Source of the DNA: Ponticaulis sp.
Lineage (GTDB): Bacteria; Pseudomonadota; Alphaproteobacteria; Caulobacterales; Hyphomonadaceae
Assembly (NCBI GenBank): GCA_002723155.1
Contig: PBNO01000016.1
Span: 1-51,531, forward strand
Reading direction: 5' to 3'
Length of the DNA: 51,531 nt
Below are positions 1,702 to 50,305 of the stretch, piece by piece. The notes beneath the pieces were generated by a model. It was not told where the DNA came from. It did no database searches and was given only the letters and a program-made list of their open reading frames with translations. Every line of letters starts with the position of its first letter. Within the stretch, counting starts at the first letter, position 1. Made by a program: the position numbers and the translations under genes.

Positions 1702-2037
1702 ATGAACATCGTCAACCTCGTCGGCCGACTGGCCAAGGACCCGATCGCCCGCGACGGCAGCAAGACCAAGGTCACCGAGCTGCTCCTGGTCACCGAACGC
1801 CCCGTCATCCGCGACGGCCGCGTCCAGAAGGATCCGGAAACCGGCTACACGAAAACCGACGCCGAGTTCCACAAGATCATCGTCTTCAACGGCATGGGTC
1901 TTCCGCTCCGCGACCACAAGGCGAAGGGCGACCAGCTCGCGGTCACCGGACGCATTCACTACACCCGCTGGCAGGATGCCGACGGCAACGACCGCTACGG
2001 CTGCGAGATCATCGCCGAGAACGTCGAGTTCCTCTGA
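1702..2037 (+). CDS. ssb: Single-strand DNA-binding protein, short plasmid type
   Basis: A 111-residue OB-fold protein starting MNIVNLVGRLAKDP, with ELLLVTERPV, FHKIIVFNGMG and KGDQLAVTGRIHYTRWQ in the SSB order. It lacks the long acidic C-terminal tail of chromosomal SSB, which recruits partner proteins, and ends at ENVEFL. Plasmid SSBs coat single-stranded DNA that enters during conjugation. The start is set by AAGGAGG 8 nt upstream; an open frame extends to 1285 but is mostly the leader. A GCAA-loop hairpin follows the stop. Good match to the family. Confidence 0.85.
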   Translation: MNIVNLVGRLAKDPIARDGSKTKVTELLLVTERPVIRDGRVQKDPETGYTKTDAEFHKIIVFNGMGLPLRDHKAKGDQLAVTGRIHYTRWQDADGNDRYGCEIIAENVEFL

Positions 2038-3216: not shown

Positions 3217-3380
3217 CCCGGCCTTTTGCCGGGACCGCGCTCTACTACGCTAGGCTCCTGCCAGCTCCTCGCCTTCGCTCGATCGCTGTCTGCGTCGCCA
3301 AGCTACGCCGAACCCGGCAAGCCGGTTTCGGCCCATCCGGGTGACGATCGCGTGGCGGGATAGCCGCGCACCGCGCTATC
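3217..3380 (+). ncRNA. Structured RNA candidate, family R1, copy 1
   Basis: This segment is homologous to 8100-8256. The copies share GGACCGCGCTCTA, CGCTAGG and GGGTGACGATCG. Seen in order here: hairpin CCCGGC/GCCGGG (3217-3233); the conserved block 3232-3259; a stem CGTCGCC (3293-3299) with GGTGACG (3340-3346) enclosing a hairpin CCGAA (3308-3312)/TTCGG (3327-3331); and hairpin GATAGC/GCTATC (3359-3380). The other copy keeps the first, enclosed and last hairpins with different bases, which supports RNA structure. The G-U pair in the enclosing stem works only for plus-strand RNA. Not matched to a known family. Confidence 0.55.
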
Positions 3381-3737
3381 GCGCTGCGGCCTGAAGAGCG
3401 GGGCTGACTGCATCGGCTCGACCTCCGGCCGACAAGGTCTTGGCTGACGCATGGCTGGCAGATTCACCGCATCCCTTCAGCGGAGCGCCAGCCTTCGGTC
3501 GGGCCTCCGCCTTTTTCATTGGCCCCGCGGGCTCTCGGTCCCGCCGCTCGCGTCCGGGCGGCCGCGCGAGGGCAACGACCCTTGGCGTTGCCGCGCGCGC
3601 GAGACGCACCGGCCTGTCTAGCCGCGGCTCCTGCGGGAGCCCGATGGGTGTGAAGAAAAGAAGAGGGGAGAGGGGAGGGTGGGTTTGATTGCATCCTCGT
3701 GTGATGGGGTCCGAAGGATACTTGCGGCAAAGATCCG
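3381..3737 (+). other. Hairpin-rich non-coding stretch with a G-quadruplex motif
   Basis: No gene is seen. Strong hairpins occur at 3563-3599 (CGCGCG plus GGCAACG pairing with CGTTGCC plus CGCGCG) and at 3626-3641 (GGCTCC, TGCG loop, GGAGCC). At 3665-3683 four G runs (4, 4, 3, 3) with loops AGA, A and T make a classic quadruplex motif. With the elements on either side, about 810 nt (3142-3950) carry no protein. Confidence 0.45.
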
Positions 3738-3900
3738 GTCAAGGATCTGCGGTCCCCCCAATTTTTTCCCGGCTTTTGTCTGCTTGCAGCAGACGGGAAA
3801 AAATCGGCTCCCCCGCAGCCCGTAGGCGTTAACCGGGGTCCGGCCCTGACGTGCCGGCTTCCCGGTTAACGTCCCTGACCTCGTTTGCCCGCTGCGCACC
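3738..3900 (+). ncRNA. Structured leader RNA, family R2, copy 1
   Basis: Homologous to 5107-5211. Conserved blocks are GTCAAGGATC, GCGGTCCCCCCAATTT, AAATCGGCTCCCCCGC, GCCCG and CGTCCCTGACC. Between them sit two hairpins that differ completely between the copies. Here the first is ATTTTTTCCCG/CGGGAAAAAAT with an inner GTCTGC/GCAGAC. The second is GTTAACCGGG/CCCGGTTAAC with an inner CCGGC/GCCGG. It lies 50 nt upstream of the DUF2493 gene, so a cis-acting leader is likely. CTCCCCC could pair with the GGAG of the ribosome site at 3940-3943, which is an inference. Confidence 0.6.
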
Positions 3901-3950
3901 ATTGGACCCGTCATCACGAGATGACGCGATCAAACCAATGGAGGCTTCCA

Positions 3951-4949
3951 ATGCAGACTTTCAACTCTTTCGCCGATCTCGCCAACGCCCGGATCGAGCT
4001 GGCCGACAGCCGCGGCCCGGTGACCGAAGCATACGACGGCGCGTTCCTCGAGCACAGCGACATGGCGAAGCTCAGCGTGGTCGACGAACCGATCACCGCC
4101 GACATGCCCGACGCCGACATGGCGAGGCGCGCCGTGGAGATGGCGATCGGAACGATCTTCGACGTCCTGAAGGACACCCGCATGGAGGAATTCGCCCAGC
4201 AGCTCGCCTGGGGGATGGTCAACTCCTTCCACATGACCGCCCGCCTGGTCGAAGGACGCGAGGACGATGCGGCGAAGAAGCTCGGAGAACTTGCCCGTCA
4301 CTTCGATCCTTCCGAAATCTACGCCGTCGAACTCGAAGAGACCCAGCTTCTCGTCCAGACGCTGCAGGGGTGCCGCGAAGCGCTGGAAGCGATGCGCGAC
4401 CATGCCTCGGACGTCTACCGGGTCGAGACCGGGCGACCGTTCACTGCCACACGCGGATCGCAGGTCAGCAAGAACGGCGTCACCGCCTCGCAGATCCAGG
4501 CACGCGACTTCCTCGCAGCCCGGGCGAAGGATCGCAGGGCCCAGTTCCAGCCCGAAGGGCCGCTTGTGGTGGTCTCGGGCGGCATGAAGGACTGGCACGA
4601 CTTCGAGATGATCTGGGACATCCTCGACGACATCAAGGAGCGCGTCCCCAACATGGTCCTCGGCACGACCGGAATGCGCAAGGGTGTCGACGCGATGGCG
4701 AACGCATGGGCCCAGAAGAACGGCGTGCAGACGATCCTCTTCATGCCCGACCGGCGGCACGGCAACCGCGCACCGTTCCTGCGCAACGAGAACATGGTCA
4801 AGCTCGGGCCGGTGGAAGCGATCATCGGCGAAGGTTCGGGCATCCAGTCGAACCTCGCACAACGGCTGCGGCAGGCAGGCGTGCCGGTTCACATCCGCCG
4901 GATCGCCGATCAGCGGCAGCAGAAGGTCGGCGCGTCCACCTTCGGGTGA
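3951..4949 (+). CDS. DUF2493 (YspA / cpYpsA-like SLOG) protein
   Basis: A 332-residue protein. The N-terminal 170 residues are helical and typical of the plasmid-borne version. The C-terminal domain (about 203-325) begins PLVVVSGGMKDWHDFEMIW and continues with GTTGMRKGVDAMANAWA and GEGSGIQSNLAQRLRQAG. This is the DUF2493 pattern, placed in the Rossmann-like SLOG superfamily thought to bind nucleotide-derived ligands. The biochemical role is unknown. The ATG at 3951 is chosen because TGGAGG lies 6 nt upstream; the open frame extends to 3885. It is preceded by a structured leader and followed by a terminator, so it appears to be a single-gene unit. Confidence 0.75.
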   Translation: MQTFNSFADLANARIELADSRGPVTEAYDGAFLEHSDMAKLSVVDEPITADMPDADMARRAVEMAIGTIFDVLKDTRMEEFAQQLAWGMVNSFHMTARLVEGREDDAAKKLGELARHFDPSEIYAVELEETQLLVQTLQGCREALEAMRDHASDVYRVETGRPFTATRGSQVSKNGVTASQIQARDFLAARAKDRRAQFQPEGPLVVVSGGMKDWHDFEMIWDILDDIKERVPNMVLGTTGMRKGVDAMANAWAQKNGVQTILFMPDRRHGNRAPFLRNENMVKLGPVEAIIGEGSGIQSNLAQRLRQAGVPVHIRRIADQRQQKVGASTFG

Positions 4950-4958
4950 GCGCCTCTC

Positions 4959-4998
4959 GGGAGGCTCCGGCATACGCCGGGGCCTCCCTTTCCTTTTC
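4959..4998 (+). terminator. Terminator after the DUF2493 gene
   Basis: A 12-bp stem (GGGAGGC and CCGGC paired with GCCGG and GCCTCCC, each side bulged by one base) with an ATAC loop spans 4959-4988. TTTCCTTTTC follows. Confidence 0.75.
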
Positions 4999-5106
4999 GT
5001 CTCGGCAAGACGGGCTCGGGGGGCATCGAGCCCCCGTCGCCCGTACCGGGAACATGGAGTGGTCGTCTCTCGTGTCGTCCCAGTCTGGTGCGGCATTCCT
5101 GCGCCC
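4999..5106 (+). other. Short non-coding gap
   Basis: No gene or clear structure is seen here. It must carry the promoter for the structured leader that starts at 5107. I could not pick convincing -35 and -10 boxes. Confidence 0.3.
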
Positions 5107-5211
5107 GTCAAGGATCGGCGGTCCCCCCAATTTGCTGCGCAAATCGGCTCCCCCGCCGCCCGCTGGCGCGGCGTTGCTGCGCAACGTCCCTGACCGGCTT
5201 GACCCGCGCAC
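5107..5211 (+). ncRNA. Structured leader RNA, family R2, copy 2
   Basis: Same conserved blocks as 3738-3900, in the same order, but with short hairpins: ATTTGC/GCAAAT (5130-5144) in place of the first long stem and CGTTGC/GCAACG (5172-5186) in place of the second. The bases differ wholly from copy 1, yet the pairing is kept, which is strong evidence for RNA structure. It ends 35 nt before a small membrane protein gene whose ribosome site (AATGGAGGT) resembles the one after copy 1. Confidence 0.6.
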
Positions 5212-5246
5212 CCGATGGGAACTCCCACCGAACAATGGAGGTTATC

Positions 5247-5477
5247 ATGGGTGTCCAAGTCGAATTGTTCAAAGCGCTCCGGTCTGTTAAGATCGGCAAT
5301 GACGAAGCATCAAAAGTCGTCGAAGAACTGGAAGGTCACATCGCCGTGAAGATCACCGAAGCCAATAAGGAACTCGTCGGCGAGCTCAAAAGCCAGCGTT
5401 GGGTTCTCGGTTTCCTGCTCATCGTCACAACGATCTCCGCGGGCCTTGGCGGCTACGTCGCCTTCATCCTGAAATAG
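5247..5477 (+). CDS. Small coiled-coil membrane protein (76 aa)
   Basis: Residues 1-50 are a charged amphipathic helix (KIGNDEASKVVEELEGHIAV and onward), likely a coiled coil. Residues 52-74 form one membrane segment (WVLGFLLIVTTISAGLGGY). The layout resembles small DUF1640-type proteins, which are coiled coil plus C-terminal anchor, but I cannot confirm membership. The start is set by TGGAGG 5 nt upstream. It stands alone between an R2-type leader and a strong terminator. The function is unknown; a scaffold anchored by its C-terminus in the inner membrane fits the topology. Confidence 0.65.
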   Translation: MGVQVELFKALRSVKIGNDEASKVVEELEGHIAVKITEANKELVGELKSQRWVLGFLLIVTTISAGLGGYVAFILK

Positions 5478-7983: not shown

Positions 7984-8043
7984 CGTCTCGTTCCGATCGC
8001 CGTTTGATGGACCAAACGGCGATCGGATTCGAGACGTTTTTTT
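7984..8043 (+). terminator. Long perfect hairpin followed by T7
   Basis: An outer stem CGTCTCG (7984-7990)/CGAGACG (8030-8036) encloses a perfect 14-bp stem, 7993-8006 with 8013-8026, with a 6-nt loop. Seven T follow on the plus strand (8037-8043), as in a terminator. On the minus strand the same hairpin lies directly before the ribosome site of the gene at 7969 and could also control that gene. Confidence 0.55.
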
Positions 8044-8099: not shown

Positions 8100-8256
8100 G
8101 CGGCCTTCAGCCGCTCAGGACCGCGCTCTATTTCGCTAGGTTCCTCGCTGCCCTGGCTACGCTAGGGCAGCTTCGTCACCAAGCTCCACCGAGCCGGCCT
8201 TGCAGTCCGTCTCGGCCCTGCGGGTGACGATCGACGTGGCGCGCTTCACGCGCCAC
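8100..8256 (+). ncRNA. Structured RNA candidate, family R1, copy 2
   Basis: Homologous to 3217-3380. The 28-nt block at 8118-8145 matches the other copy at 25 positions. Hairpins seen: GCGGC/GCCGC (8100-8114); GCTGCCCT/AGGGCAGC (8147-8171); stem CGTCACC (8174-8180)/GGTGACG (8223-8229) enclosing CCGAG/CTCGG (8189-8215); and GTGGCGCG/CGCGCCAC (8236-8256). Three of these have different bases but conserved pairing in copy 1. It lies between the divergent gene at 7969 and the transfer operon at 8666. Confidence 0.55.
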
Positions 8257-8665: not shown

Positions 8666-8956
8666 ATGGAACGAAAACTACAAAGCGTCGGCGTGACGCT
8701 CAGTCCTCAAATGGTCGACAAACTCGACCATTTGGCTTCGAGCAGGGGAGTATCCCGCTCCGAGGCTATTCGGGTTTCGCTGGAACTTGGTGTTCCTCTC
8801 CTACACCTTGGCATTGCGATCAACGGCCAACGCGCGCTGACGATCCTCGAGCATACTCAGCTCGCGCTCTCACTACTCGTCCAAAAACAATACCCCGAAG
8901 ACAGCGACGAACTCATCGAGATCGCCATGCGCAACGTGCGAGAGCACCATGCGTGA
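8666..8956 (+). CDS. Ribbon-helix-helix DNA-binding protein, TrwA-like position
   Basis: A 96-residue protein. The N-terminal 45 residues (VGVTLSPQMVDKLDHLASSR, then GVSRSEAIRVSLELG) show the strand-helix-helix pattern of CopG/Arc-type regulators. The rest is helical. In R388-type conjugation systems a ribbon-helix-helix protein (TrwA) is encoded immediately before the coupling protein; it binds oriT, helps relaxosome assembly and represses the operon. This gene overlaps traD by 8 nt, the same place and size. The repeats at 8501-8583 are likely binding sites. The ribosome site is modest (AGGTGAG). The fold is quite sure; the TrwA role is inferred from context. Confidence 0.7.
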   Translation: MERKLQSVGVTLSPQMVDKLDHLASSRGVSRSEAIRVSLELGVPLLHLGIAINGQRALTILEHTQLALSLLVQKQYPEDSDELIEIAMRNVREHHA

Positions 8957-11345
8957 GGACATCCGCTTCAGCAAGCGAGCGGCGACGCTGACGCACGACT
9001 CTGCACGTGGAAAGGTGAAGCGAAACGCGGGCAACTTCACCCGTGGATCGCAGCTCTTCCACCACGAGGTTTTGATGACCTGGGCGGGCGTCAAGCTGCC
9101 GCTCTATACGTGGCTCGCAACCACTATCGTACTGCTGTTCGCGCTCGGGTTCTTCACCTTCGAAAACCACGAGGTTCATCTCGTCATTATGCGGGGTCTG
9201 GCAACCCTATGGAACTGGGTCTCGCTTAACCCTGAAAAGGCCGTCAATCTCACGCTTCCAAATGGCCAGATCGTGCAGGGACACATGGCCATGGTGCCCT
9301 ATCATCCTGCCGTCCAGGCAGCATGGGCAACGGCCGTCCGCGTCACCGTTTCCTCGATGCTAGGAGCAGCATTCATCTGCGTCCCGCTTACGGTATGGTT
9401 CGTCGACTTTTCGCGCCGCCGCGGATCCGCAATCCTGACCGAAAGACATGAGCGAGGCGCGGTCATGGTCGACCGGCAAACCCTCGCCGACGCGATCCGT
9501 GCCCACAACTGGCGCGAGCATGAGAAAGAATGCCTTTCGCGCAAGCCCGCCGAAGATCCGAGAGCCGTCCTCAAAGAGAACCTAAAGAGCCGCGTCCGGC
9601 GCGGAATTCATCACCCCTACATGCTTGCCGGACTGCCCGTCCCATGGCGCCTCGAACAGAGCCACGCGATGTTCATCGGCACGACCGGCGCAGGTAAGAC
9701 GACAGAGCTCAAGAAGCTCGTCACGCAGGCCCGCGCTCGGGGCCATCGCTGTGTCATTTTCGACCTCACCGGGACCTTCGTCGAGAACTTCTTCAACGCG
9801 GAAACCGACGTCATCCTGAACCCGATGGATCGCCGCTGCGAACCGTGGTCGATCTTCAACGATTGCGACAACTACGCGGAGTTCATGAGCGCGGCCACCG
9901 CTCTCGTGCCGAGCGGCCAGAATGTCGAGGACGATTTCTGGCAAAAGTCAGCCCGTACTCTGATGGTCGAAATGTGCGTCAAGCTGGTCCAGATGGGTGT
10001 GCGCACCAATGGTGGGCTCGCCTATTATCTGATGCAATCCGACCTCAAGACGATCCACGCGCAGCTCGAGGGAACGGTTGCGGGCCCGATGATGTCACCG
10101 TCGGCTGCGAAGATGGCGGAATCGATCCGCACCACCTTTATCGCGAATGCGAACGCGTTCCGCTTTCTGCCAGACCCGAAGCCCGCAGAGGAAGGCTTCT
10201 CGATCAAGCGCTGGATGACCACTGACGTGAAGGAGGGGTCGATCCTGTTCATCACCTCCACACATCCCGATCTCACCCTCAATCGACCGCTGCTGACGCT
10301 CTGGATGGACCTCGCGGTCAACGCTTTGCTCCAGATGGGCCGGAGCCGGTCGCTGCGTACCTGGTTCCTAATCGACGAAGTCCATGCGCTCCATCGGCTG
10401 CCGGCGATCGATCACGGTCTCCAGACCGCGCGAGCGTTCGGCGGTGCTTTCGTTCTGGGGATGCACTCCTTCGACAAGCTCGAGGAGACCTACGGGGAGC
10501 ACGGGGCGACCAATCTCGCCTCTCTGGCGGGGACCAAGCTAATCCTCAAGACGGCCGACCCGGAGACCTCGCGCCGCTGCTCCGAATTCATCGGCAACCG
10601 GCAGGTCCGGCAGATGGATGAGGCCTACTCCTATGGCTACAACAACAGACGCGACGCCTCGACCATCACGCCGCGCACCAATGTCGAAGAGCTGGTGATG
10701 CCGGACGACATCGGAAACCTGCCGAGTATGCACGGCTTCATCAAGTTTCCGGACGGGTTTCCCGCCGCGCGAATCCGCTTGTCGTGGAAGGACTATCCCG
10801 TCTGCGCCGAAGGTTTCCAGCGCGTCACCGACATGCGCGCGGCCGAATATATCCCGAGCAACGAGGAAACCGCGGAAATGGGTGTCGAGGGGCGCGAGGG
10901 GGATGGGCCGCTCTTCCAGCCTACCGAGAGCCGCGAAGAAGCCAATCTCGAGCTGAGCGAGGCGGAGCGTGAAGCCGAGAGGTTGCGCGAACAGGTGGAG
11001 GGATCACTCGCTCGCCAGACGGAGGAGGCGCGTTCCCAGATCGACAAGACGAATATCATGAAAGAGGCAGAGGAAGCTGCCAGTGAACAGCGAGATCCGA
11101 AAGAGACTCTCACTTGGAAACCTTCGGGTCAGCGGGATCAGCGAGAGCGTCAACGCTATGCGCAACGCGATGTCGAGGAACGCGCTGCGCACGGGAAGCA
11201 CGGACAAGATGCCCTTCGCGACCAGCGCGCACGAGCGGACAATCAGGAGAGCGAGCTGGCCCGCGAGAACATGCGCGGCTTCGGCGCCGAAAAAGTGCAG
11301 CGCGACGATCACGGGATCGACGACGACCAGGAGATGAGCCGGTGA
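8949..11345 (+). CDS. traD: Type IV coupling protein TraD/TrwB
   Basis: A 798-residue inner-membrane ATPase that links the relaxosome to the transfer channel. There are two membrane segments (about 52-70 and 135-153) with a periplasmic loop between. A Walker A motif GTTGAGKTT lies at 244-252. A Walker B-type strand ending LIDEVH is near 474. The late motif FGGAFVLGMHSFDKL also fits. After about 640 the protein is a charged, Glu/Arg-rich coiled-coil tail, as in long TraD proteins, where the tail aids relaxosome recognition. The start overlaps the ribbon-helix-helix gene by 8 nt, and the stop overlaps the XRE gene by GTGA, so the four transfer genes form one coupled operon. Confidence 0.9.
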   Translation: MREDIRFSKRAATLTHDSARGKVKRNAGNFTRGSQLFHHEVLMTWAGVKLPLYTWLATTIVLLFALGFFTFENHEVHLVIMRGLATLWNWVSLNPEKAVNLTLPNGQIVQGHMAMVPYHPAVQAAWATAVRVTVSSMLGAAFICVPLTVWFVDFSRRRGSAILTERHERGAVMVDRQTLADAIRAHNWREHEKECLSRKPAEDPRAVLKENLKSRVRRGIHHPYMLAGLPVPWRLEQSHAMFIGTTGAGKTTELKKLVTQARARGHRCVIFDLTGTFVENFFNAETDVILNPMDRRCEPWSIFNDCDNYAEFMSAATALVPSGQNVEDDFWQKSARTLMVEMCVKLVQMGVRTNGGLAYYLMQSDLKTIHAQLEGTVAGPMMSPSAAKMAESIRTTFIANANAFRFLPDPKPAEEGFSIKRWMTTDVKEGSILFITSTHPDLTLNRPLLTLWMDLAVNALLQMGRSRSLRTWFLIDEVHALHRLPAIDHGLQTARAFGGAFVLGMHSFDKLEETYGEHGATNLASLAGTKLILKTADPETSRRCSEFIGNRQVRQMDEAYSYGYNNRRDASTITPRTNVEELVMPDDIGNLPSMHGFIKFPDGFPAARIRLSWKDYPVCAEGFQRVTDMRAAEYIPSNEETAEMGVEGREGDGPLFQPTESREEANLELSEAEREAERLREQVEGSLARQTEEARSQIDKTNIMKEAEEAASEQRDPKETLTWKPSGQRDQRERQRYAQRDVEERAAHGKHGQDALRDQRARADNQESELARENMRGFGAEKVQRDDHGIDDDQEMSR

Positions 11346-11623
11346 GCCGCCTGTTTACGATCAGCCATATCGACCCGAAGAACAAAGCCGAGATCGGCCG
11401 ACGGCTGAAGGCTGTCAGGAAAACCGTCGGCGAGGTCGGTGAAACCTTTGCCCAGGCGATCGGGACCTTTCAGGCATCATTGTCGGGATACGAGAATGGC
11501 AAGAACGCCGTTCCGATCCGGATCGTCCTGTGCCTGTGCGAAACGTATCGCGTCGACGCGAACTGGTTGCTGCTCGGCAGGGGTCAAATGTTCCGCGTTG
11601 TGCGGCAGGCGGAGGCGGCCTGA
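11342..11623 (+). CDS. XRE-family regulator between traD and traI
   Basis: A 93-residue protein beginning at a GTG that shares GTGA with the traD stop. The helix-turn-helix part (about 18-70) has IGRRLKAVRKTVGEVGETFA, then FQASLSGYENGKNAVPIRIV and ANWLLLG, the pattern of Cro/C1-type regulators such as those with DANWLL[LT]G near the end. It is not part of the classic trwB-trwC pair. It is a plausible operon autoregulator or copy/transfer switch. The relaxase start follows its stop by 1 nt, so translation is coupled. Confidence 0.75.
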   Translation: MSRLFTISHIDPKNKAEIGRRLKAVRKTVGEVGETFAQAIGTFQASLSGYENGKNAVPIRIVLCLCETYRVDANWLLLGRGQMFRVVRQAEAA

Positions 11624-11624
11624 T

Positions 11625-14600
11625 ATGCTCTCGGTCGCATCGGTTTCCTCGGCAGGGGGCGCGGCGAACTACTTCGCGAAAGACGACTACTATGTCGGCG
11701 ATGGTCCCGCGGAACTGAGCGAATGGGGCGGGAAGGGGGCCGAAGTCCTCGGTCTGAGCGGGCCCGTCAGCAAGGAGGACTTCGAAAAGGTCCTCGACGG
11801 CAAACTGCCCGATGGCACGGTCGTCAACGGTCACGAGAAGCGGCAAAGCGGGACCGATCTCACCTTCTCAATGCCGAAATCGGCCAGCCTCCTCGCCCAG
11901 CTCGGAGGGGACCAGCGCATCCTCGCGGCGCAGCACGACGCCGTCAAAGCGACGATGGCGTATCTGGAAAAGCGTTTCGCGGAGACGCGCGACTATTCGC
12001 GCAATTCGAAGGGTGAGCCGGTCATCACAGGCAAACTCGTCTATGCCCTCTTCCAGCACGATACGAGTCGCAAGCTCGATCCCCAGAACCATACACACGC
12101 CGTCATCGCGGCACTCACCCAGACCAAGGACGGCAAGTGGCAGGCGCTCCACAATGTGGAGATCTGGAAGAACAACTCGGTTCTGGGCTCGATCTACAAC
12201 GCCGCCCTGCGCACTGGCCTCGAAAAGCTCGGCTACCAGACGGAGCTCACCGGCAAGCACGGGCAGTTCGAGATCAAGGGCGTCTCTCGCGAGGTCATCG
12301 AAGCATTCAGCCAGCGCCGTCAGGACATCTTGGCCGAAGCAAATCGACGCGGTACCGGCATAAACGAGACCGAAGAACTCCGGAAGATCACTAAGACAAC
12401 GCGCGACCCAAAGCTGAACGCCGACGACAAGCAGGCGCTCCGCGCCGAATGGGCAGAGCGCGCAAGGGGCCTGGGTTTCGATGCCAAGGCGATCGTCGAC
12501 CAGGCGCGGGCCCGGGCCAATGATGGACGGGAAACGCCGCTGGGCACGCCAGAGCGGGTTCAGACAGCGCTTGGGGAGCTCCGGGAAACGGCGAAGGTCT
12601 ACACGCGCCCTGCAGATGAACTGACCACCAACGGCCTCAGGCGGGTAACGCTGACCCCGACCCAATTGCGGACCGAGATGGCCACCGCGTCCGCCGTTCG
12701 CGTCATAGGCGAGCGCGAGACGTCATGGACCCGGGGCGAACTGGTCAAGACGGCACTCGATCTCGGCCTCAAGGGCGTAACCGCTGAAGGCGTCGAAGCC
12801 CGGATGGATGCCCTCATCGCAAGCGGTCGTATGCTCGAAGGCGAAAGCACGCGTCTCGACAAGGCGGTCGACAAGTACACAACCCCCGAACACGCCGCGA
12901 TCGAGCGGGCCGCCCTCGCCAACGTGGCTTCCGGTAAGGGGCAAAGCCCCGGCATGATAGACGCCGGAGAGGCACCGGCTCGGCTACGAGAGGTCGCAGG
13001 TCCGCATGAGCTCAATGCCGAGCAAATCGCGGCCGGAGTCCTCGCGCTGTCGAGCGACGATCGCACCGTCGTCATCCAGGGCGTCGCCGGCGCGGGCAAG
13101 ACCACGCTCATCTCCGCGATCGCCAGCGTCGCCCACCAGGAGGGCCGCGAAGTCATCGGTCTCGCTTTCGCGAACAAGATGGTCAACGACCTCCGGAACG
13201 ACACCGAACTCCGCAAGCCCGGGGGCGAGCTCGTCCAGGGCGGCATCGAGGCGAAGACGGTCTCATCCTTCGTCAACCAGCACCTGCGCGCAGCGCTTCA
13301 TGGCTCAGGACCTGCATTCGAAGCATCGCGCGCGGCGCTGCAGGGCAGGGTCCTCGTGCTCGACGAAGCCTCGCTGGTTGCGAACAAGCCGATGAACGAT
13401 GTCCTGACGATCGCGAACCGGCTCGGCGTCGAAAAACTCGTCATGATCGGCGATAAGGCACAGCTGCAGCCGATCGAGGCGGGCAAGAGCTTCTCGCTGA
13501 TTCAGTCCGATGGACCAGCCATGGCGCGTCTCGACACCAGCCTCCGCCAGCGCACCGACCATATGAAGGAGGCGGCGGGGCTCGCCCGGGCAGGCAAGTT
13601 CCGCGAAAGCTTCGCCTCGCTGGGCGACAAGGTGGCCGAGGCGGGCAAGGATCATCTCGCGGTCACAGCCAAAACCTGGCTCGATCTTTCGCCGGAGGAT
13701 CGCGAGCGCACCGCGATCTACTCCTCCGGTCGCGATGCACGGATGTCGCTCAACCGGATGGTCCAGGACGGGCTGCGCGCCGAGGGTGTGTTGAAGGGTG
13801 AGGGGATCGAGCTGACCACGCTGCGGCCGGCTCACGCGACCCGTGAGGAGCTCCGGTACACTGCGACCTATGCGAAGGGCCAGATGCTCGAGGTTACGCG
13901 CCACAACGCCCCTGGCGGGCTTCCGAGGGGCCGCTACGACGTCGAGGGTCTCGACGACAAGGGCAGGGTGCTGCTGCGCGACGAGAACGGCAAGCTGAAG
14001 CGCTTCGATCCGACCCGGATCGATCCCGCCGACAAGCGCGATGCCTTGCGTCTTTCGGAGAAGACCAAGGAAACCATTCACGAAGGCGACAAGATCCGCT
14101 GGACCGAGAAGGACGACGCCCGGAAACTGATGAAATCCGAGGAGGCGAAGATCCTCGCCATCAAGGACGGCACGGTCACGGTCGAAAACCGGCACGGCGA
14201 GACGGTCGAGCTCAAGCAGAACGACAAGATGCTCGAACGCATGGGGCTCGCCTACGCGATCAACATGCACCAGGCGCAGGGCGACACACGCGACATGGCG
14301 ATCGGCGAGATGCACTCATCCGCGCGTCATCTCTCGAACCAGCGTCTCGCGCTCGTGATGATGACCCGCGTGCGCGACGACATCACGATCGTCACCAATG
14401 ACAAGGACCGCCTGCTTTCCCAGATCGACCGGAACCCGGGCGACAAGAGCAGCGCGCTCGAGACCTTGGGCGAGAAGCGTCTCGACGGCCCCGTCCAGGA
14501 GCGCAGCCAGACCGACTTCAACCCGCGCATCCCAGAGCACCTGCTTCCTGCAGGCGCGAAGGAAGAGCCGCTTCCCGCGGTCGACAAGGACAGCTTGCGC

Positions 14601-14651
14601 GCCGTCCCGCAGATCGACCTCCCCGAACGAACCATCGAACGCAGCCGATAG
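11625..14651 (+). CDS. traI: MobF relaxase-helicase (TrwC/TraI type)
   Basis: A 1008-residue protein that nicks and unwinds plasmid DNA for transfer. Relaxase domain (about 1-300): N-terminal tyrosines Y16, Y22 and Y23 (NYFAKDDYYVG) and the three-histidine metal site H145, H156, H158 (DPQNHTHAVI). Helicase domain (about 440-930), RecD-like SF1: Walker A GVAGAGKTT at 486-494, LDEASLV near 578, GDKAQLQPIE near 608 and INMHQAQGDT near 878. The ATG at 11625 is chosen because the TrwC family starts MLSVASVSS or similar; GGAGG lies at 11611. It is shorter than F TraI and close to R388 TrwC. All key residues are present. Confidence 0.92.
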   Translation: MLSVASVSSAGGAANYFAKDDYYVGDGPAELSEWGGKGAEVLGLSGPVSKEDFEKVLDGKLPDGTVVNGHEKRQSGTDLTFSMPKSASLLAQLGGDQRILAAQHDAVKATMAYLEKRFAETRDYSRNSKGEPVITGKLVYALFQHDTSRKLDPQNHTHAVIAALTQTKDGKWQALHNVEIWKNNSVLGSIYNAALRTGLEKLGYQTELTGKHGQFEIKGVSREVIEAFSQRRQDILAEANRRGTGINETEELRKITKTTRDPKLNADDKQALRAEWAERARGLGFDAKAIVDQARARANDGRETPLGTPERVQTALGELRETAKVYTRPADELTTNGLRRVTLTPTQLRTEMATASAVRVIGERETSWTRGELVKTALDLGLKGVTAEGVEARMDALIASGRMLEGESTRLDKAVDKYTTPEHAAIERAALANVASGKGQSPGMIDAGEAPARLREVAGPHELNAEQIAAGVLALSSDDRTVVIQGVAGAGKTTLISAIASVAHQEGREVIGLAFANKMVNDLRNDTELRKPGGELVQGGIEAKTVSSFVNQHLRAALHGSGPAFEASRAALQGRVLVLDEASLVANKPMNDVLTIANRLGVEKLVMIGDKAQLQPIEAGKSFSLIQSDGPAMARLDTSLRQRTDHMKEAAGLARAGKFRESFASLGDKVAEAGKDHLAVTAKTWLDLSPEDRERTAIYSSGRDARMSLNRMVQDGLRAEGVLKGEGIELTTLRPAHATREELRYTATYAKGQMLEVTRHNAPGGLPRGRYDVEGLDDKGRVLLRDENGKLKRFDPTRIDPADKRDALRLSEKTKETIHEGDKIRWTEKDDARKLMKSEEAKILAIKDGTVTVENRHGETVELKQNDKMLERMGLAYAINMHQAQGDTRDMAIGEMHSSARHLSNQRLALVMMTRVRDDITIVTNDKDRLLSQIDRNPGDKSSALETLGEKRLDGPVQERSQTDFNPRIPEHLLPAGAKEEPLPAVDKDSLRAVPQIDLPERTIERSR

Positions 14652-36496: not shown

Positions 36497-36511
36497 TGGA
36501 CCAGTGGTCCA
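36497..36511. promoter_or_regulatory. TetR operator candidate
   Basis: A perfect 15-bp palindrome, TGGACCA, G, TGGTCCA, in the 109-bp gap between the divergent tetR-like gene and the export operon. Size, symmetry and position fit a TetR-family binding site. Confidence 0.7.
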
Positions 36512-36563
36512 CAAACTGTTAGTTTGCTATTCGACTCATCGCATCCTGGAAAACTCCATACCA

Positions 36564-37295
36564 ATGTCCGCCCGACCCGACATCGAAGCCAGCGTGACAG
36601 CCTATCGCACTCAGGGCCTGACCAAGGTCTATGGCGAGGGTTCGGCTGCCGTCCATGCGCTGCGCGGAGTAGATCTGGAGATTCCCGCTGGCGAGGTGGT
36701 GGTTTTGCTTGGGCCATCGGGCAGCGGCAAGTCGACCTTGCTCAATATTCTTGGCGGTCTTGATCGCCAGACCGATGGCCAGGCCTGGTTTGAGGAAAGT
36801 GAGCTAGGCGTGATGAGCGACAAGGAGCTCACTCGCTATCGCCGGGAAAATGTCGGCTTTGTCTTCCAGTTCTACAATCTGATGCCGAGCCTGACTGCCT
36901 ATGAGAATGTTGAGCTGGTCACAGAAATTGCCGATGATCCGATGGATCCGGCAGAGGCTTTGGCGCTGGTGGGCCTGAAGGAAAGAGTCGACCATTTTCC
37001 AACACAACTTTCAGGCGGCGAACAGCAACGTGTCGCCATTGCCCGTGCTGTCGCAAAAAAGCCTAAGGTTCTGTTTTGCGATGAACCGACCGGCGCGCTT
37101 GATTCTGCAACTGGGCGCTCGGTGTTGCGCGTGCTGCGCGATGTAAACCAGACGCTTGGTTCTACTGTCCTGATCGTCACTCATGCCGCAGCAACCGCCG
37201 CCATGGCGCACCGCGTAATCCATTTCGCCGATGGAGATATTCGCAAGGTTGAACTCAATGCGACCTTGCTCGATCCTGATGAGATCGAGTGGTGA
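36564..37295 (+). CDS. MacB-type ABC transporter ATPase (LolD-like)
   Basis: A 243-residue ATPase. Walker [10 protein letters not shown] lies at 50-58, the Q-loop at [11 protein letters not shown], signature [14 protein letters not shown] near 149, Walker [13 protein letters not shown] near 169 and the H-loop VTHAAATA. The spacing and [18 protein letters not shown] are typical of the MacB/LolD/FtsE group that works with FtsX-type permeases, like the one starting 7 nt downstream. Start at 36564 because the upstream part of the frame covers the operator. It belongs to a four-gene export operon. Confidence 0.9.
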
Positions 37296-37302
37296 TCGCC
37301 CG

Positions 37303-39666
37303 ATGAGCCCACTCGACAAGAAGCTGCTGCGCGATCTCTGGCGAATCAAGGGGCAAGCACTCGCCATCGGCGCTGTTATCGGTGTTGGCGTGCTGATGCT
37401 GGTGATGATGACTGGTCTTGTCACTTCGCTCGATGAAACGCGCCGCGCCTATTATGAACGGCACAGGCTGGCAGATGTGTTTGTGCCCCTCGTGCGGGCG
37501 CCTGAGCGCATGGAGGCCCGTCTGGCCGAAATCCCCGGCGTAGCGAGCGCTGAGGGGAGAATCTCAGGATCGGCCCAGATCGATCTTTCAGGTGAAGATC
37601 TTCCATTGCAGGCGCGTATCATTTCGCTTCCCGAGAATGGTGAGCCGCAGCTCAATGAGATCTATCTCACCGACGGGCGCCGGCTGGACGAAGCCAATCC
37701 CGATGAGATCATCCTTCTGAAGAGCTTTGCCGATGCGCGCGGTCTTCTGCCCGGGGATGCGCTGACCTTAACAATTCGCGGAGGCCAGAGAGAATTCCAG
37801 ATTGTCGGCCTCGCCCGATCACCGGAGTTTCTCTATGTCACCGCGCCCGGTGAGATTGCTCCTGATGATGCGCGCTACGCGGTTATCTGGATGGGGCAGG
37901 CAACGGCCGCTGCTGCATTCGATATGAGCGGCGCGTTTAACGAGGCGCTGGTTTCCCTGACACGCGATGCCCGTGAGCCCGCCGTGATCGAATCCATTGA
38001 CCAGCTTGTCCGACCCTATGGCGGCTTGGGTGCCTATGGGCTGGAAGATCATTTCTCGGATCGATATGTGAGTGAAGAAATCAGCGGCTTGCGGGGAACA
38101 AGCGCCGTGGTTCCGCCTGTATTTCTCGCCGTTGCCGCCTTCCTGCTCTACATTGTGATTTCCCGAATGGTGCAGGCAGAACGCAGTCAGATCGGGCTTA
38201 TCAAGGCCTTTGGCTATACCGATCTCGAGGTCGGCGCGCACTATTTCAAACTGATCCTTGTGATCGCGGTTTCAGGCGCGTTGCTAGGCTGCCTCGGGGG
38301 CATCGCCTCGGGGCGAAGTCTCGTCAATGTCTATGTCGATTACTTCAAGTTTCCTTTCCTCTTGTTCGAGGTGAAGCCGTCCAGCTTCATTCTGGGTATA
38401 TTGGTGAGTGTGCTTTCTGCATCGGCAGGCGGGCTGCTGGTGTTGCGGCAGGTTTTTGCGCTCACGCCCGCAGTGGCCATGCGCCCGGCTGCTCCTGCAG
38501 ATTACAGCGCATCGGGGCGCATCGGCCAGTCGATCTTTGGTCTGCTCGATCAGCCCAGCAGAATGGTTCTGCGGCGTATAACACGCCAACCTGGCAGAAT
38601 GGCTGGCGCGGCCTTGGGGGTTGCAGCAGGCATGGGGCTGGCAACGGCCATGACCGCCGTAATGGGAGGGTTTGACCGTTCTATGGACCTGACCTTCGGC
38701 GTGATCGACCGCAGCGATGTCACCGTCAGTTTTGTGAACCCGGTATCAAACAAGGTTGTTCTGGAACTTGGGCGAATGCCGGGCGTGATTGAGGTTGAGC
38801 CTGCTCGCAATGTCTCTGTCGTATTGCGGAATGGCACCAGAACCCATCGCGGCGCGCTGGAAGGGAGGGTGCGCAATCCACGCCTCAACCGCGCAATAAC
38901 CCCGCGCCTTGAGCCTATCGAAATGCGCCAAGAGGGGATCATTATCGCGACATCACTGGCTCAGAAACTTGCCATCACTCCGGGCGAGATTCTGACGGTT
39001 GAGGTGAAGGAAGGCCGCCAGCCGGTCTTGCAGATCCCGGTTGTCGGGACGACCCAGAGCCTGCTGGGTTCACCTGCCTATATTGAAATTGATGCGCTTA
39101 ACCGCGCCATGCGCGAACCGGGCCGTATCTCCGCAGCAAGCCTGCGCGTCGATTCCGCGCAAAGCGATGCGATCTATCGCAGGCTCAAGGGGATGCCCGC
39201 TGTTGTGGGCGTGAGCCTGAAAGAAAATGCGCGGGAATCGCTTCAGAGGATGATGGATACAGGTGCGGGAGCCATGCGCTTCATCATGGCGGGCATCGCC
39301 TTCGTCATCACCTTTGGCATCGTCTACAACTCCGCCCGCATCGCTCAGGCGGAGCGCGAGCGAGACCTTGCCAGCCTGCGGGTGCTGGGCTTCTCCAAGG
39401 GCGAGGCGGCCTTCGTTCTATTAGGCGAACTAGTCCTTGTCACCTTCATCGCTCTGCCAGTCGGCGCGCTGATCGGCTTTGGCCTTTCCTCTGTCATTGC
39501 CGAGGGCTTTAGCAGCGATCTCTACCAAATTCCTGCCGCTTATGGCCGCGCCGACATCGGCATTGGCGCATTGGCCGTGCTTGTGGCGACATTGGTTTCT
39601 GCATGGCTGGTGAAACGCGATGTCGATCGAACCGAACTTATCACAGCCCTGAAATCCAGAGAGTAA
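37303..39666 (+). CDS. FtsX-type ABC permease (fused two-domain form)
   Basis: A 787-residue permease from the ATG at 37303. The N-terminal membrane segment (about 22-42) is followed by a large periplasmic domain, three segments near 265-390 (VPPVFLAVAAFLLYIVISRM and onward), a second anchor near 430 and a second periplasmic domain. Three final segments (about 650-770) follow. This is two FtsX/MacB-like units in one chain. Together with the ATPase it would drive a tripartite pump by periplasmic conformational change. The stop is 2 nt before the adaptor gene start. Confidence 0.85.
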   Translation: MSPLDKKLLRDLWRIKGQALAIGAVIGVGVLMLVMMTGLVTSLDETRRAYYERHRLADVFVPLVRAPERMEARLAEIPGVASAEGRISGSAQIDLSGEDLPLQARIISLPENGEPQLNEIYLTDGRRLDEANPDEIILLKSFADARGLLPGDALTLTIRGGQREFQIVGLARSPEFLYVTAPGEIAPDDARYAVIWMGQATAAAAFDMSGAFNEALVSLTRDAREPAVIESIDQLVRPYGGLGAYGLEDHFSDRYVSEEISGLRGTSAVVPPVFLAVAAFLLYIVISRMVQAERSQIGLIKAFGYTDLEVGAHYFKLILVIAVSGALLGCLGGIASGRSLVNVYVDYFKFPFLLFEVKPSSFILGILVSVLSASAGGLLVLRQVFALTPAVAMRPAAPADYSASGRIGQSIFGLLDQPSRMVLRRITRQPGRMAGAALGVAAGMGLATAMTAVMGGFDRSMDLTFGVIDRSDVTVSFVNPVSNKVVLELGRMPGVIEVEPARNVSVVLRNGTRTHRGALEGRVRNPRLNRAITPRLEPIEMRQEGIIIATSLAQKLAITPGEILTVEVKEGRQPVLQIPVVGTTQSLLGSPAYIEIDALNRAMREPGRISAASLRVDSAQSDAIYRRLKGMPAVVGVSLKENARESLQRMMDTGAGAMRFIMAGIAFVITFGIVYNSARIAQAERERDLASLRVLGFSKGEAAFVLLGELVLVTFIALPVGALIGFGLSSVIAEGFSSDLYQIPAAYGRADIGIGALAVLVATLVSAWLVKRDVDRTELITALKSRE

Positions 39667-39668
39667 TC

Positions 39669-40844
39669 ATGGCGAATAGCAAAAAGAACTCCCGCAAATA
39701 TCTGACAATTGGCGCGATCATTTTCGGCCTTGCTATGCTCGCTCTCGCCTTCTGGCCCAGCGCGATTGCGGTCGATATGGACGAGGTCACCAGCGGGCCA
39801 ATGCGTGTGAGCATTGATGAAGAGGGCCGCACACAGGTGCATGATGCCTATCTCGTCTCAGCACCCTCCAACGGCCGGTTGCAGCGCATTGAAGTGGAGG
39901 CTGGAGACACAGTCACCGCCGGAAGCGTGATTGGCTGGATTAGCCCTCCGCCGCTGGATTCACGCTCCGACGCTCAGGCCCGCGCAAACATTGCCAGCGC
40001 GCAGGCGGCGCTCAGAGCGGCGCAAAGCGAGCGGGATAATGCAGCTGCGAACAGGCAATTGGCCGATGCCGATCTGGCTCGCGAGGAGCGTTTATGGGAG
40101 CTCGAATCCACCAGTCGCTCCGCCTTGGAACTGGCACAAAGAAATGCCCAGGGAGCGGCATCAGCGCTGGAGGCGAGCAATGCGACAATTGCCCTGCGAC
40201 AGGCCGATTTGGCGAGCGCCAGGGCGCAGATCAATGCAGGCAGTTCGGCCATTCCCATCCGAGCACCCGTTTCGGGACAGGTGCTTTCAGTCAGGCAGGA
40301 AAGCGAAGCGACAGTTGCTGTCGGCACGCCGATCGTCGAGATCGGCAATATTGCGGGTGACCTTGAAGTGGTTGTGGAGCTACTTTCCACTGATGCGGTG
40401 CAGGTCTCGATGGGCGATCCGGTGTTGATCGAGGATTGGGGCGGAGATGCGCCAATCACGGGCGAGGTTGCGCAGATCGAACCGCAGGGCTTCACCAAAG
40501 TCTCCGCGCTTGGCGTTGAAGAGCAGCGCGTAAATGCCCGAATCCGGATACACGATCCAGCGGACCGGTTGGGCAGCGGATTCCGTGTCGAGGCGCGCAT
40601 CATTGTCTGGCTGGATGACAACGCACTGATTGTGCCTTCTACAGCTCTTTTTCGCGAGCAGGGCGAATGGGCGGTCTTTGTGGTTTCCGGCGGAAAGGCC
40701 GAATTGCGTCAGCTGGAGATTGGGCGAAACAACGGCACTCAAGCGCAAGTGCTGAGCGGCCTGCAAGAAGGCGAAACGGTCATCCTTTATCCCGCTTCGG
40801 AGGTGGAAGATGGCAGCGCAGTCGAACAGCGTGAAGTGGGCTGA
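39669..40844 (+). CDS. Periplasmic adaptor of the export pump (HlyD/MacA-like)
   Basis: A 391-residue adaptor. The membrane anchor is at about 10-30 (YLTIGAIIFGLAMLALAFWP). A beta part (VSAPSNGRLQRIEVEAGDTV), a coiled coil (about 95-200), the closing lipoyl half (IPIRAPVSGQVLSVRQESEA) and a C-terminal barrel follow. The gene starts 2 nt after the permease stop. It should bridge the permease to the NodT-like channel encoded next. Substrate unknown; antimicrobial peptides, macrolides or lipids are known for related pumps. Confidence 0.87.
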   Translation: MANSKKNSRKYLTIGAIIFGLAMLALAFWPSAIAVDMDEVTSGPMRVSIDEEGRTQVHDAYLVSAPSNGRLQRIEVEAGDTVTAGSVIGWISPPPLDSRSDAQARANIASAQAALRAAQSERDNAAANRQLADADLAREERLWELESTSRSALELAQRNAQGAASALEASNATIALRQADLASARAQINAGSSAIPIRAPVSGQVLSVRQESEATVAVGTPIVEIGNIAGDLEVVVELLSTDAVQVSMGDPVLIEDWGGDAPITGEVAQIEPQGFTKVSALGVEEQRVNARIRIHDPADRLGSGFRVEARIIVWLDDNALIVPSTALFREQGEWAVFVVSGGKAELRQLEIGRNNGTQAQVLSGLQEGETVILYPASEVEDGSAVEQREVG

Positions 40845-40847
40845 GCG

Positions 40848-42284
40848 ATGAACCACAAACGCTCCAATCCCCTGCTTTCCCTTTCACTATCGGCCGTGCT
40901 GCTGTCTGGTTGTGCTCTTCCCGAACGCACGCCTCCACAGCTGGAAATCCCCGTCCCGGACCAGTTTGAGGCCGGGAGTTCGGCTCCGGGCGAAATTGGC
41001 GGCAAGTGGTGGGAAGAATTTGGCGACAGGCAACTCGATGCCCATGTTGAACGCGCACTGTCCGATAGTCCTGCCATCCTGCAGGCCATTGCCCGCACGC
41101 AGCAGGCTCGCGCGCTTGCCGATCTGGCCGGAGCCGATCAGTCCCCGCAAGTCTCTCTCGGTTTCGGTGCTGGGCGACAGAAGCTAACCTTGGAAAGCCT
41201 TGGTATCGTTGTCCCTGATGCAGGCGGCGGTGGGGCACAGTCTTCCTACCGGATCAATACGTTTGACCTGACTGGCAATGTCAGCTGGGAGGTCGATCTA
41301 TGGGGCAGGCTCTCCGCGCAATCGGCGGCCGCGCGAGCCGATTTTCTTGCCAACGAGGCCAATCTGCAATCTGTCCGCCAGTCTATCGCTGCGCAAACAG
41401 CACGCGCCTATTTCGCGATGATAGAGGGCGGCCGACAGGTCAACCTAGCGAGGCAGGTTGCCGAGAATGCCGCTCAAATGGAGCGGCAGATCAGCAATCG
41501 CGTGCGCCTGGGCGCAGCGCAGCCTGCCGATGGTCAGCTTGCAATCGCAAGCCTTGCATCCGCCAATGCCAATCTGGCGGCGCGCGAAGAGATCTTGGCG
41601 CGGACCACGCGTCAATTCGATGTGCTGCTTGGCGATTATCCCGATGGCGTGGTTGCCTTCGCTGACCAGTTGCCCGCTTTGCAGTCACAGCCGCCCGCCG
41701 GACTTCCGGCCGAACTGCTTTCGCGCAGGCCGGATATTCTGGCGGCGCAACTTAACCTTGAGGCAGCGGGATTCCGGCTCGATGCGGCGGAGCGATCCTT
41801 TTTGCCCAGCATTGAGCTGACGGGAAGGGCGGGTACTTCGAGCACGCAATTGAGCAATCTGCTCGATCCTGATTTCTTCATCTGGTCAATCGCCGGGCGT
41901 TTGCTCCAGCCAATCTTTCAGGGAGGCCGTCTTCGTGCGCAATTTGATCTGCGTGAAGGCGAACGGGACGAAGCGCTCCAACTATATGCAGACACTGTCT
42001 TGAACGCGCTGAGCGAGGTGGAGACTGCGCTGGCTGTTGAAGAGTTTCTGACGGAACAGGAGCAGGAATTGGCCACTGCCTTAGCTGCAGCAAGCGAAGC
42101 ACACAGGATTGCGCGCAATCGCTATGACGTAGGCAGCGACCCATTGCTTAACGTGCTTGATGCTCAGAGCCGTATGATCGAGGCACAGTCCGCCTTGCTG
42201 GTGGTCAGACAGGCCCGGATCGATAACCGGATCAACCTGCACCTTGCATTGGGTGGCGGTTTTGAAACTGGTGCCCAAAAATGA
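40848..42284 (+). CDS. Outer-membrane efflux lipoprotein (NodT/TolC family)
   Basis: A 478-residue protein. It starts MNHKRSNPLLSLSLSAVLLS and has a lipobox LSGC (Cys22). The mature chain has the two long helical repeats of TolC-type channels (WEVDLWGRLSAQSAAARADF, then RPDILAAQLNLEAAGFRLDA). It is the last gene of the pump operon, 3 nt after the adaptor. It could also serve the type I secretion system to the left, which lacks its own channel, though the families that serve RTX secretion are usually non-lipidated. Confidence 0.9.
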   Translation: MNHKRSNPLLSLSLSAVLLSGCALPERTPPQLEIPVPDQFEAGSSAPGEIGGKWWEEFGDRQLDAHVERALSDSPAILQAIARTQQARALADLAGADQSPQVSLGFGAGRQKLTLESLGIVVPDAGGGGAQSSYRINTFDLTGNVSWEVDLWGRLSAQSAAARADFLANEANLQSVRQSIAAQTARAYFAMIEGGRQVNLARQVAENAAQMERQISNRVRLGAAQPADGQLAIASLASANANLAAREEILARTTRQFDVLLGDYPDGVVAFADQLPALQSQPPAGLPAELLSRRPDILAAQLNLEAAGFRLDAAERSFLPSIELTGRAGTSSTQLSNLLDPDFFIWSIAGRLLQPIFQGGRLRAQFDLREGERDEALQLYADTVLNALSEVETALAVEEFLTEQEQELATALAAASEAHRIARNRYDVGSDPLLNVLDAQSRMIEAQSALLVVRQARIDNRINLHLALGGGFETGAQK

Positions 42285-44274: not shown

Positions 44275-44296
44275 ATGATAGAGATATTTATATCAT
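44275..44296. promoter_or_regulatory. A+T-rich palindrome in the divergent promoter
   Basis: ATGATA (44275-44280) and TATCAT (44291-44296) flank a GATATTTATATC core (44283-44294), between the divergent antitoxin and DUF2235 genes. An operator and overlapping promoter are likely. If so, the antitoxin may control both directions. Confidence 0.5.
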
Positions 44297-44346
44297 ATGA
44301 AGTCCGATTGCAAGCGCGGTCGGACGCGCAAGCGAGGCAGGCCACC

Positions 44347-49931: not shown

Positions 49932-50119
49932 AGACACGAATTTCCAGGGCGCCAGGCGACTTGGCCGGAGCGTCCGCGCAAACGCGGTCGACGAGACTGC
50001 CAGGGGACGGACGCGTGCATCCCCCGGCGGTCCTGCCGATGCGGCTCCAACCGCTACTCGTCGCCCAGACGAAATTCGTTTCGCGCCCGGCCAATCCCAT
50101 GAGCCCGGCAAGAGCGACA
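49932..50119 (-). other. Leader between riboswitch and btuB
   Basis: About 190 nt of transcribed leader with several GC-rich inverted repeats but no clear T-tract terminator. Control could act on translation. I see no ribosome site of unusual strength. Confidence 0.4.
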
Positions 50120-50305
50120 CGCACCGGTCGGTCTCCTGGCTCACGGGTCACTGCACGCGACATACCTTCCCAGACGGACATCGCCGCCCAGTGGTCGTGG
50201 AGCGAACCCCACTCATGTCACGCGCTCGCCGCTTACAGTTGCAGGGACAGCCGCAGAATTGGCCCGGCAAGACCTCACTGCGTTCCCGTTACCGGCACGC
50301 ACTAT
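50120..50305 (-). promoter_or_regulatory. Cobalamin (B12) riboswitch
   Basis: Read on the minus strand, it has the ordered signatures of the class: GTAACGGGAACGCAGTGAGG, CTGTCCCTGCAACTGTAAG, CCACTGGGC, GGGAAGGT and GTGAGCCAGGAGACCG. It lies upstream of btuB, as expected, and would lower expression when cobalamin is plentiful. Confidence 0.92.

Follow-up and report, generated by a model that had tools for sequence, protein, structure and literature searches.

Promoters that work on single-stranded DNA have to date been described, in the sources consulted here, from enterobacterial plasmids (PMC11541004, PMC9849209, PMC12826799). As presented in PMC9849209, Frpo1 and Frpo2 of the F plasmid are active in vivo, and it was there that their switch-off with second-strand synthesis was shown. 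The accounts in PMC9849209 and PMC11541004 indicate that the Frpo/ssi elements of F and ColIb-P9 resemble the locus analysed here in that i) they lie in the leading region, with genes facing the transfer genes, ii) the transferred strand forms a long imperfect hairpin bearing a -35 and a -10 element, and iii) they occur in more than one copy per plasmid, with a single-strand-binding gene nearby. The EGeRS1 regions of pLS20-family plasmids are likewise repeated structured regions directly before establishment genes, and the authors of that work argue against a single-strand promoter, in part because it is the non-template strand that is nicked there (PMC8708921). In a NAR 2026 survey, as described in PMC12826799, single-stranded promoters were sought by Frpo sequence similarity, and in a Nature 2024 survey by Frpo similarity together with a consensus-and-fold search in four islands (PMC11541004); the main text of the latter contains no mention of Alphaproteobacteria, Rhizobi- or Sphingo-. 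A search of the openly licensed literature returned no ssDNA promoter of this kind for Alphaproteobacteria, and for the conserved block described below it returned unrelated matches only.

The DNA analysed here, called the window, is a stretch of 51,531 nt from Ponticaulis sp. (positions 1 to 51,531 of contig PBNO01000016.1, labelled C16 in an assembly of 18 contigs). The original prediction had pointed to four sequence blocks recurring in the same order at 3738–3900 and 5107–5211; their recurrence at both places was confirmed from the sequence, but the ends given for it were not, the elements proper being 3738–3879 and 5107–5194. The repeated hairpins are probably a DNA switch rather than an RNA switch, and we consider it highly likely that each copy is a Frpo-like single-stranded-DNA promoter for leading-region genes of a conjugative plasmid, of which we infer both the transcription and its timing. 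The parts of the two copies are given below, with bit scores from a covariance model of the family (R1); A1 is an alignment of 49 elements in minus-strand reading.

3738..3879, minus (folded) strand: structured core of copy 1 (R1 79.8 bits; DNA fold; family covariation)
3738-3745/3872-3879, minus strand: stem P1 of copy 1 (DNA fold)
3747-3752/3813-3818, minus strand: stem P2 of copy 1 (DNA fold)
3758-3771/3794-3807, minus strand: stem P3 of copy 1, with an upper stem at 3779-3784/3788-3793
3819-3826, minus strand: P4 of copy 1, weak
3827-3871, minus strand: P5 of copy 1, long
3753..3812, minus strand: purine-rich internal loop of copy 1, kept across the family (A1 consensus and invariant columns)
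3682..3936, minus strand: outer stem P0 of copy 1 (DNA fold)
5107..5194, minus strand: structured core of copy 2 (R1 88.9 bits; DNA fold)
5107-5114/5187-5194, minus strand: stem P1 of copy 2 (DNA fold)
5116-5121/5153-5158, minus strand: stem P2 of copy 2
5127-5135/5139-5147, minus strand: stem P3 of copy 2
5160-5171, minus strand: P4 of copy 2 (DNA fold)
5172-5186, minus strand: P5 of copy 2 (DNA fold)
5078..5220, minus strand: outer stem P0 of copy 2 (DNA fold; family spacer complementarity test)

In the DNA fold of copy 1, 3682–3733 pairs with 3881–3936, with interruptions, and so encloses the core, while the outer stem of copy 2 consists of 5087–5092/5207–5212, 5103–5105/5196–5198 and a weaker 5078–5085/5214–5220. 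The C-runs of both copies lie opposite each other inside the internal loop; in copy 1 these are plus-strand TCCCC (3753–3757) and CTCCC (3808–3812), so that the minus strand is G/A-rich there. Fold energies of copies 1 and 2 were -75.0 and -46.6 for the minus strand and -70.5 and -39.0 for the plus strand. Scanning the window with R1 at E up to 10 gave no copies beyond these two. The blocks had been read as single strands separated by two hairpins that differ in every base. However, GTCAAGGA and TCCCTGAC pair mutually to form stem P1, and stem P2 forms between GCGG in the second block and CCGC after the third. Besides the two hairpins described, the fold contains a short one, P4, which is weak in copy 1. 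Of the two, P5 does differ between the copies, whereas in P3 CCAATTT/AAATCGG is common to both. The P5 hairpin of copy 1 (3827–3871), of the form GT(T/C)AACC...GGTTAAC, has similar counterparts in six other loci (L012, L034, L035, L045, L049 and L050) and is unlike P5 elsewhere; several copies with this hairpin, copy 1 included, stand before DUF2493-like genes.

A search with the pattern CAAGGATCNGCGGTCCCCC yielded 53 genome-contig stretches, and 80 placements were left after removal of chance matches, representing 52 distinct elements, or 50 once the 3' end had been re-judged. A match in Gemmatimonadetes (L047), in which the second block is absent, was among the chance matches removed, as were those in L022 and L041, in which the second C-run is absent; L019, whose end had been misjudged, lies outside the seed and was scored among the held-out copies. 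Near-identical copies (more than 80% identity over 50 nt of the left flank) were removed before counting, and the copies that remain are related, so that the counts given here lack independence. BLAST at an E limit of 1, which lets chance matches in, matched copy 2 to 153 plasmid records and copy 1 to 91, and the 60 listed matches to copy 2 all bear alphaproteobacterial names except one uncultured bacterium. In genome scans with R1, each of which included the genome of origin and used stricter filters at which weak matches are lost, the family was present in 10 of 385 genomes at class level, 5 of 299 at order level and 11 of 299 at phylum level, all 11 within the same class. A pattern scan of viral contigs gave no match. 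The elements are present on alphaproteobacterial plasmids with MOBF, MOBP and MOBQ relaxases, in agreement with the link to conjugative elements drawn originally, and the covariance-model search proposed at that time did find further relatives standing before genes. Rfam had no match at the copies at the gathering score, and only sub-threshold matches in 3600–5300 at E up to 10, which fits the statement of the original prediction that no family with such a pattern was known. The only gathering-score match in the window was a cobalamin riboswitch at 50109–50340 (minus strand, 84.6 bits).

RNAalifold applied to A1 recovered P1, P2, P3 and a P4 shrunk to one pair, 21 pairs in total, 10 of which (45 cells) show double, i.e. 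compensatory, changes. The covariation score was 0.190 against 0.091 for shuffled alignments; on none of five measures did any of 500 shuffles come as high, and sliding the structure along gave far lower scores. A3, an alignment of 31 non-seed copies that was fitted to R1 and hence leans towards it, had double changes in 9 of the 21 pairs and 63 cells and 96.4% of cells paired, with four measures reached by none of 500 shuffles and the fifth by one. In a plain alignment of 35 divergent copies (A2), RNAalifold returned P4, P5 and a minor helix, and the absence of P1–P3 there is taken as misalignment. Pair cells form in 99.1% of cases on the minus strand and 88.7% on the plus strand. The minus-strand exceptions are G.T in 109 cells (8 pairs), A.C in 2 cells (2 pairs) and 7 others, and on the plus strand 109 of 1028 cells (10.6%) turn into A.C mismatches. 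Since the G.T wobbles of the minus strand become A.C on the plus strand, and the fold energies agree, the folded strand is the minus strand, antisense to the adjoining genes. The wobbles of the outer stem (49 G.T, 21 A.C) do not go beyond what composition gives (p 0.18). Conserved blocks with freely changing stems had been taken as the signature of structured RNA; the structured single strand and the strong covariation are borne out, but the pairs fit single-stranded DNA, namely the minus strand, and do not support an RNA reading.

In both copies, promoter-like elements lie on the left-flank minus strand, with the first part of each -35 inside P1.

3737..3742, minus strand: -35-like TTGACC of copy 1, TTGAC within P1 (sequence and family pattern)
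3715..3720, minus strand: -10-like TATCCT of copy 1, 16 nt from the -35 hexamer (near-identical copy L045)
5106..5111, minus strand: -35-like TTGACG of copy 2, TTGAC within P1 (sequence and family pattern)
5082..5087, minus strand: -10-like CAGACT of copy 2, 18 nt from the -35 hexamer

Across the family, the spacer after the TTGACN hexamer is 15–20 nt in 48 of 51 copies. A-11 and T-7, the positions read by sigma-70 on the non-template strand, occur together in 25 of 27 non-redundant copies in the left flank and in 0 of 27 in register in the right flank; since the -10 was placed by optimising the left flank (or, for held-out copies, at the best-scoring site), raw counts of this type are partly circular, and the right flank, shuffles and permutations serve as the controls. 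TTGA is present in 23 of the 27 on the non-template arm of P1 and in 9 on the right arm. For the left-flank motif the likelihood was 156, compared with at most 87 across ten shuffles; a motif above its shuffles (118, compared with at most 91), C/G-rich and located in the spacer arm, was present in the right flank as well. Information content over 51 non-redundant copies was highest at T-7 (0.96), A-11 (0.90), G-4 (0.82) and G-5 (0.73), the discriminator after the -10 being G-rich. For 24 held-out copies, the -10 score from a position weight matrix exceeded the shuffled 95th percentile in 17 left and 3 right flanks, 7 of the 24 thus falling below the threshold on the left. In ten more copies, the left score was above the right in all ten, L127/L128 being close pairs and L128 and L132 weak; poorly fitting copies overall include L005, L019, L075, L083, L128 and L132. 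Downstream of the -10 on the non-template strand, which in the left flank is the minus strand, a run of GAGAGA-like purines at about +5 to +10 is also weakly conserved.

The right flank of each copy is complementary to its own spacer. In 27 copies, pairing with the own flank was 7.78 of 9, compared with 6.44 for the flanks of other copies (0 of 2000 permutations), and in held-out copies 7.42 against 6.23 (0 of 5000 permutations); these values come from an ungapped test, a gapped flank comparison having been discarded as too permissive, with its control nearly as high. Flank identity is about 0.8 from -20 to -13, 0.74 at -12 and 0.07 at -11, and about random thereafter, with 0.62 at -12 and 0.12 at -11 in the held-out copies. 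Partition functions (DNA, 51 copies) gave a mean unpaired probability of 0.24 at -12 and 0.74 at -11, as against 0.35 and 0.56 in a control with mismatched flanks, and family-wide the bases past -11 were no more open than in that control. Because the unpaired probability beyond -11 resembles the control, the special feature predicted by these models is a paired spacer with a sharp end, and not an unusually open -10. The point between -12 and -11 at which pairing stops corresponds to the upstream boundary of the RNA polymerase bubble in an open promoter complex. Individual copies vary: in the best fold of copy 1 the unpaired positions within the -10 element are -12 to -10 only, and in that of copy 2 A-11 is unpaired with the rest of the -10 partly paired. 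As modelled, the fold would present -35 and -10 elements with a paired spacer, as expected of a promoter of the Frpo type.

In double-stranded DNA, the same TTGAC/-10 pair would make a leftward promoter, and an ordinary promoter of this kind, giving an antisense or regulatory RNA with the hairpins incidental or controlling, would also suit the discriminator, read leftwards with the -10, and the weakly conserved purines after it. We regard this as improbable, as it leaves unexplained the pairing of right flank and spacer with its stop at -11, the nearby start of a right-hand gene (48 of 52 copies) and the polarity towards the relaxase gene described below, and as its RNA would not contain the structure. 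With the -35 inside P1, stems P1–P5 are left untranscribed from this predicted promoter in either direction; being upstream of the -35 and untranscribed, their conserved form must act as DNA. On the arm facing the gene, TTGA occurs in only 9 of 27 copies and an in-register -10 is lacking, so that the predicted promoter should vanish with second-strand synthesis.

If the copies act as single-stranded promoters, their orientation relative to the transferred strand matters, and this was approached through the position of the relaxase gene in 40 genomes reached via the loci, with at least 150 copies. Among the copies listed (at least 150), 120 have TrwC (PF08751) or an over-cut-off PF03432 match on the same contig (74 contigs), and 30 of 150 listed have no relaxase gene on the contig. 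Within 20 kb, all 106 listed copies face the relaxase gene (TrwC 86/86, PF03432 20/20; 67 contigs), or 107 of 107 listed copies if five below-cut-off PF03432 matches are allowed; beyond 20 kb, the nearest relaxase is faced by only 8 of 14 listed copies. Of eight annotated plasmids (MOBF, MOBP, MOBQ or Ti-type traA), seven have copies that face the nearest relaxase gene. Among these seven, the copies of the Ti-type pAtS4b and of Roseibium are on the traCDG side of traA, with a second relaxase-type gene, MobA/MobL, 8 kb behind the copy of pAtS4b; that of M. indicum pVL1_3 faces away from the nearer traA side (32 kb), and traA lies ahead of it only by the longer path around the plasmid. Both window copies face the TrwC/TraI-type relaxase gene at 11439..14651. 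Samuel et al. 2024 (PMC11541004) describe the lagging region as the typical place of the relaxase. Most leading genes of the F plasmid likewise face the transfer genes. Since the copies face the relaxase gene, which is typically lagging, and the layout of F is alike, we expect the minus strand to be the one that is transferred and that serves as template for these genes. This indirect evidence places the copies, like Frpo, in a leading region before genes templated by the transferred strand.

The genes around the copies are consistent with such a region: a leading-region-like row of plus-strand genes, which also includes further small genes and one whose antitoxin match is weak and below the cut-off, is followed downstream by relaxosome and relaxase genes.

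1702..2037, plus strand: ssb, single-strand-binding protein (Pfam PF00436), with no R1 copy in front
3951..4949, plus strand: DUF2493/YspA-type SLOG protein, 332 aa, after copy 1 (PF10686, E 6.3e-21)
5247..5477, plus strand: 76-aa protein with a hydrophobic C-terminus, after copy 2 (read from the sequence)
8666..8956, plus strand: ribbon-helix-helix protein (PF01402), a likely relaxosome accessory
8949..11345, plus strand: TraD/TrwB-type coupling protein (PF10412)
11439..14651, plus strand: TrwC/TraI-type (MOBF) relaxase (PF08751, E 4.1e-83)

A near-identical stretch is present on the Porphyrobacter plasmid pYT40, typed MOBF, and the counterpart of the copy 1 gene on a near-identical plasmid is annotated as DUF2493. 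The 76-aa protein had no Pfam match; small proteins with LFKALK-like N-termini that follow several other copies, on several plasmids, resemble it, and proteins of this type are candidates for establishment functions. A start codon was found to the right of 48 of 52 copies, at a median of 58 nt from P1 and mostly at 50–70 nt, and 45 of these 48 have a Shine-Dalgarno-like site, such starts having been favoured by the script. The distances from element end to start codon are 71 nt for copy 1 and 52 nt for copy 2, instead of the 35–50 nt first reported.

The copies might instead be sites for initiation of the second strand in the recipient (primer RNA or primase) and not gene promoters. Folded T-strand hairpins would suit such a role, and Frpo is described in both roles, going by the title of Masai and Arai 1997; the presence of several copies in many genomes, mostly 50–70 nt before a start codon, fits expression better, and we consider initiation alone very improbable, although it may be an added role of the copies. 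The weakest reading is that of the original prediction, a plus-strand cis-regulatory RNA leader whose C-rich blocks mask the ribosome site: the fairly steady distance to start codons, the (script-favoured) Shine-Dalgarno-like sites of 45 of 48 copies and the covarying structure speak for it, but it is scarcely credible given that the plus strand turns 10.6% of pair cells into A.C, that the folded strand is antisense to the supposed leader (G.T 109 against A.C 2 cells) and the structure thus not in the sense transcript of the gene, that an in-register rightward -10 occurs in 0 of 27 copies, that Rfam has no match and that RNA is predicted to start only to the right of the structure, so that CTCCCCC is unlikely to mask GGAG in the mRNA.

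For the single-stranded promoter that we favour, the following course may be proposed. In the double-stranded plasmid there would be no matching promoter facing the gene. During conjugation, the minus strand would arrive first in the recipient, single-stranded, and fold so that the core P1–P5 caps the long imperfect outer stem P0. The template would come from the 5' arm of P0 and the non-template strand, with TTGAC as -35, a -10 with A-11 and T-7 and a discriminator rich in G, from its 3' arm; with the spacer paired to -12, the -10 would begin where the fork is already open. RNA polymerase carrying the housekeeping sigma factor could then bind and transcribe rightwards, out of the hairpin and into the gene, until second-strand synthesis destroys the hairpin and turns the promoter off.

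Other features of the region may be recorded here. On the plus strand to the right of several copies (among them 3909–3926 and the right flanks of L006 and L061), a small hairpin just before or over the Shine-Dalgarno site was noted by eye, for example CTCCTGTC...GACAGGAG; in the mRNA it would lie close to the 5' end. A second plus-strand repeat, GGACCGCGCTCTA.T.CGCTAGG ... GGGTGACGATCG, is present at about 3239–3364 and at 8118–8241, without an R1 match and about 73% alike as judged from the pYT40 match of the second place; it could belong to the leading region or to oriT as a further structured element. A perfect inverted repeat of 15 nt with a 6-nt loop (7992–8027), near the relaxosome genes, is a possible oriT hairpin; at the nucleotide level oriT was not found, the inverted repeat and uneven conservation being the only signs. 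Further along the window, 36504–42284 and 44275–45807 encode ABC/MacB-type exporter, HlyD and outer-membrane efflux proteins and a Tle1-like phospholipase-domain protein.

Taken together, the copies are likely to represent a separate family of ssDNA promoters, built independently of Frpo and controlling leading-region genes, on alphaproteobacterial MOBF/MOBP/MOBQ conjugative elements, with a multi-branched cap, an open-complex-like fork (paired to -12, open from -11) and a gene-facing promoter only while single-stranded. If this is true, early expression from transferred DNA is a device that either evolved independently or is very ancient, and the genes behind the elements, many without known function, become candidates for a part in anti-defence and in establishment. 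Such promoters can be sought elsewhere directly by means of the covariation model and the fork at -11, and the elements are a clean test object for RNA polymerase on pre-opened DNA. The Frpo-like principle is known from E. coli F and is, as far as found, apparently new in these bacteria; surveys based on Frpo similarity would probably miss this alphaproteobacterial family.

Compared with known systems, the elements share conserved blocks and covarying stems with the structured RNA families of Rfam, but differ from these in that the strand that covaries is antisense to the supposed leader, with no match at the copies. Unlike EGeRS1, as that system is presented in its source, they have promoter elements, and the polarity that we infer is permissive for a single-strand promoter. 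R1 detected no homologous sequence in F 45001–70000, two similar regions of which were taken as Frpo1/2. The elements also differ from Frpo/ssi in having a conserved branched cap, a purine internal loop and a TTGAC built into P1, and in belonging to Alphaproteobacteria, on plasmids with MOBF, MOBP and MOBQ relaxases.
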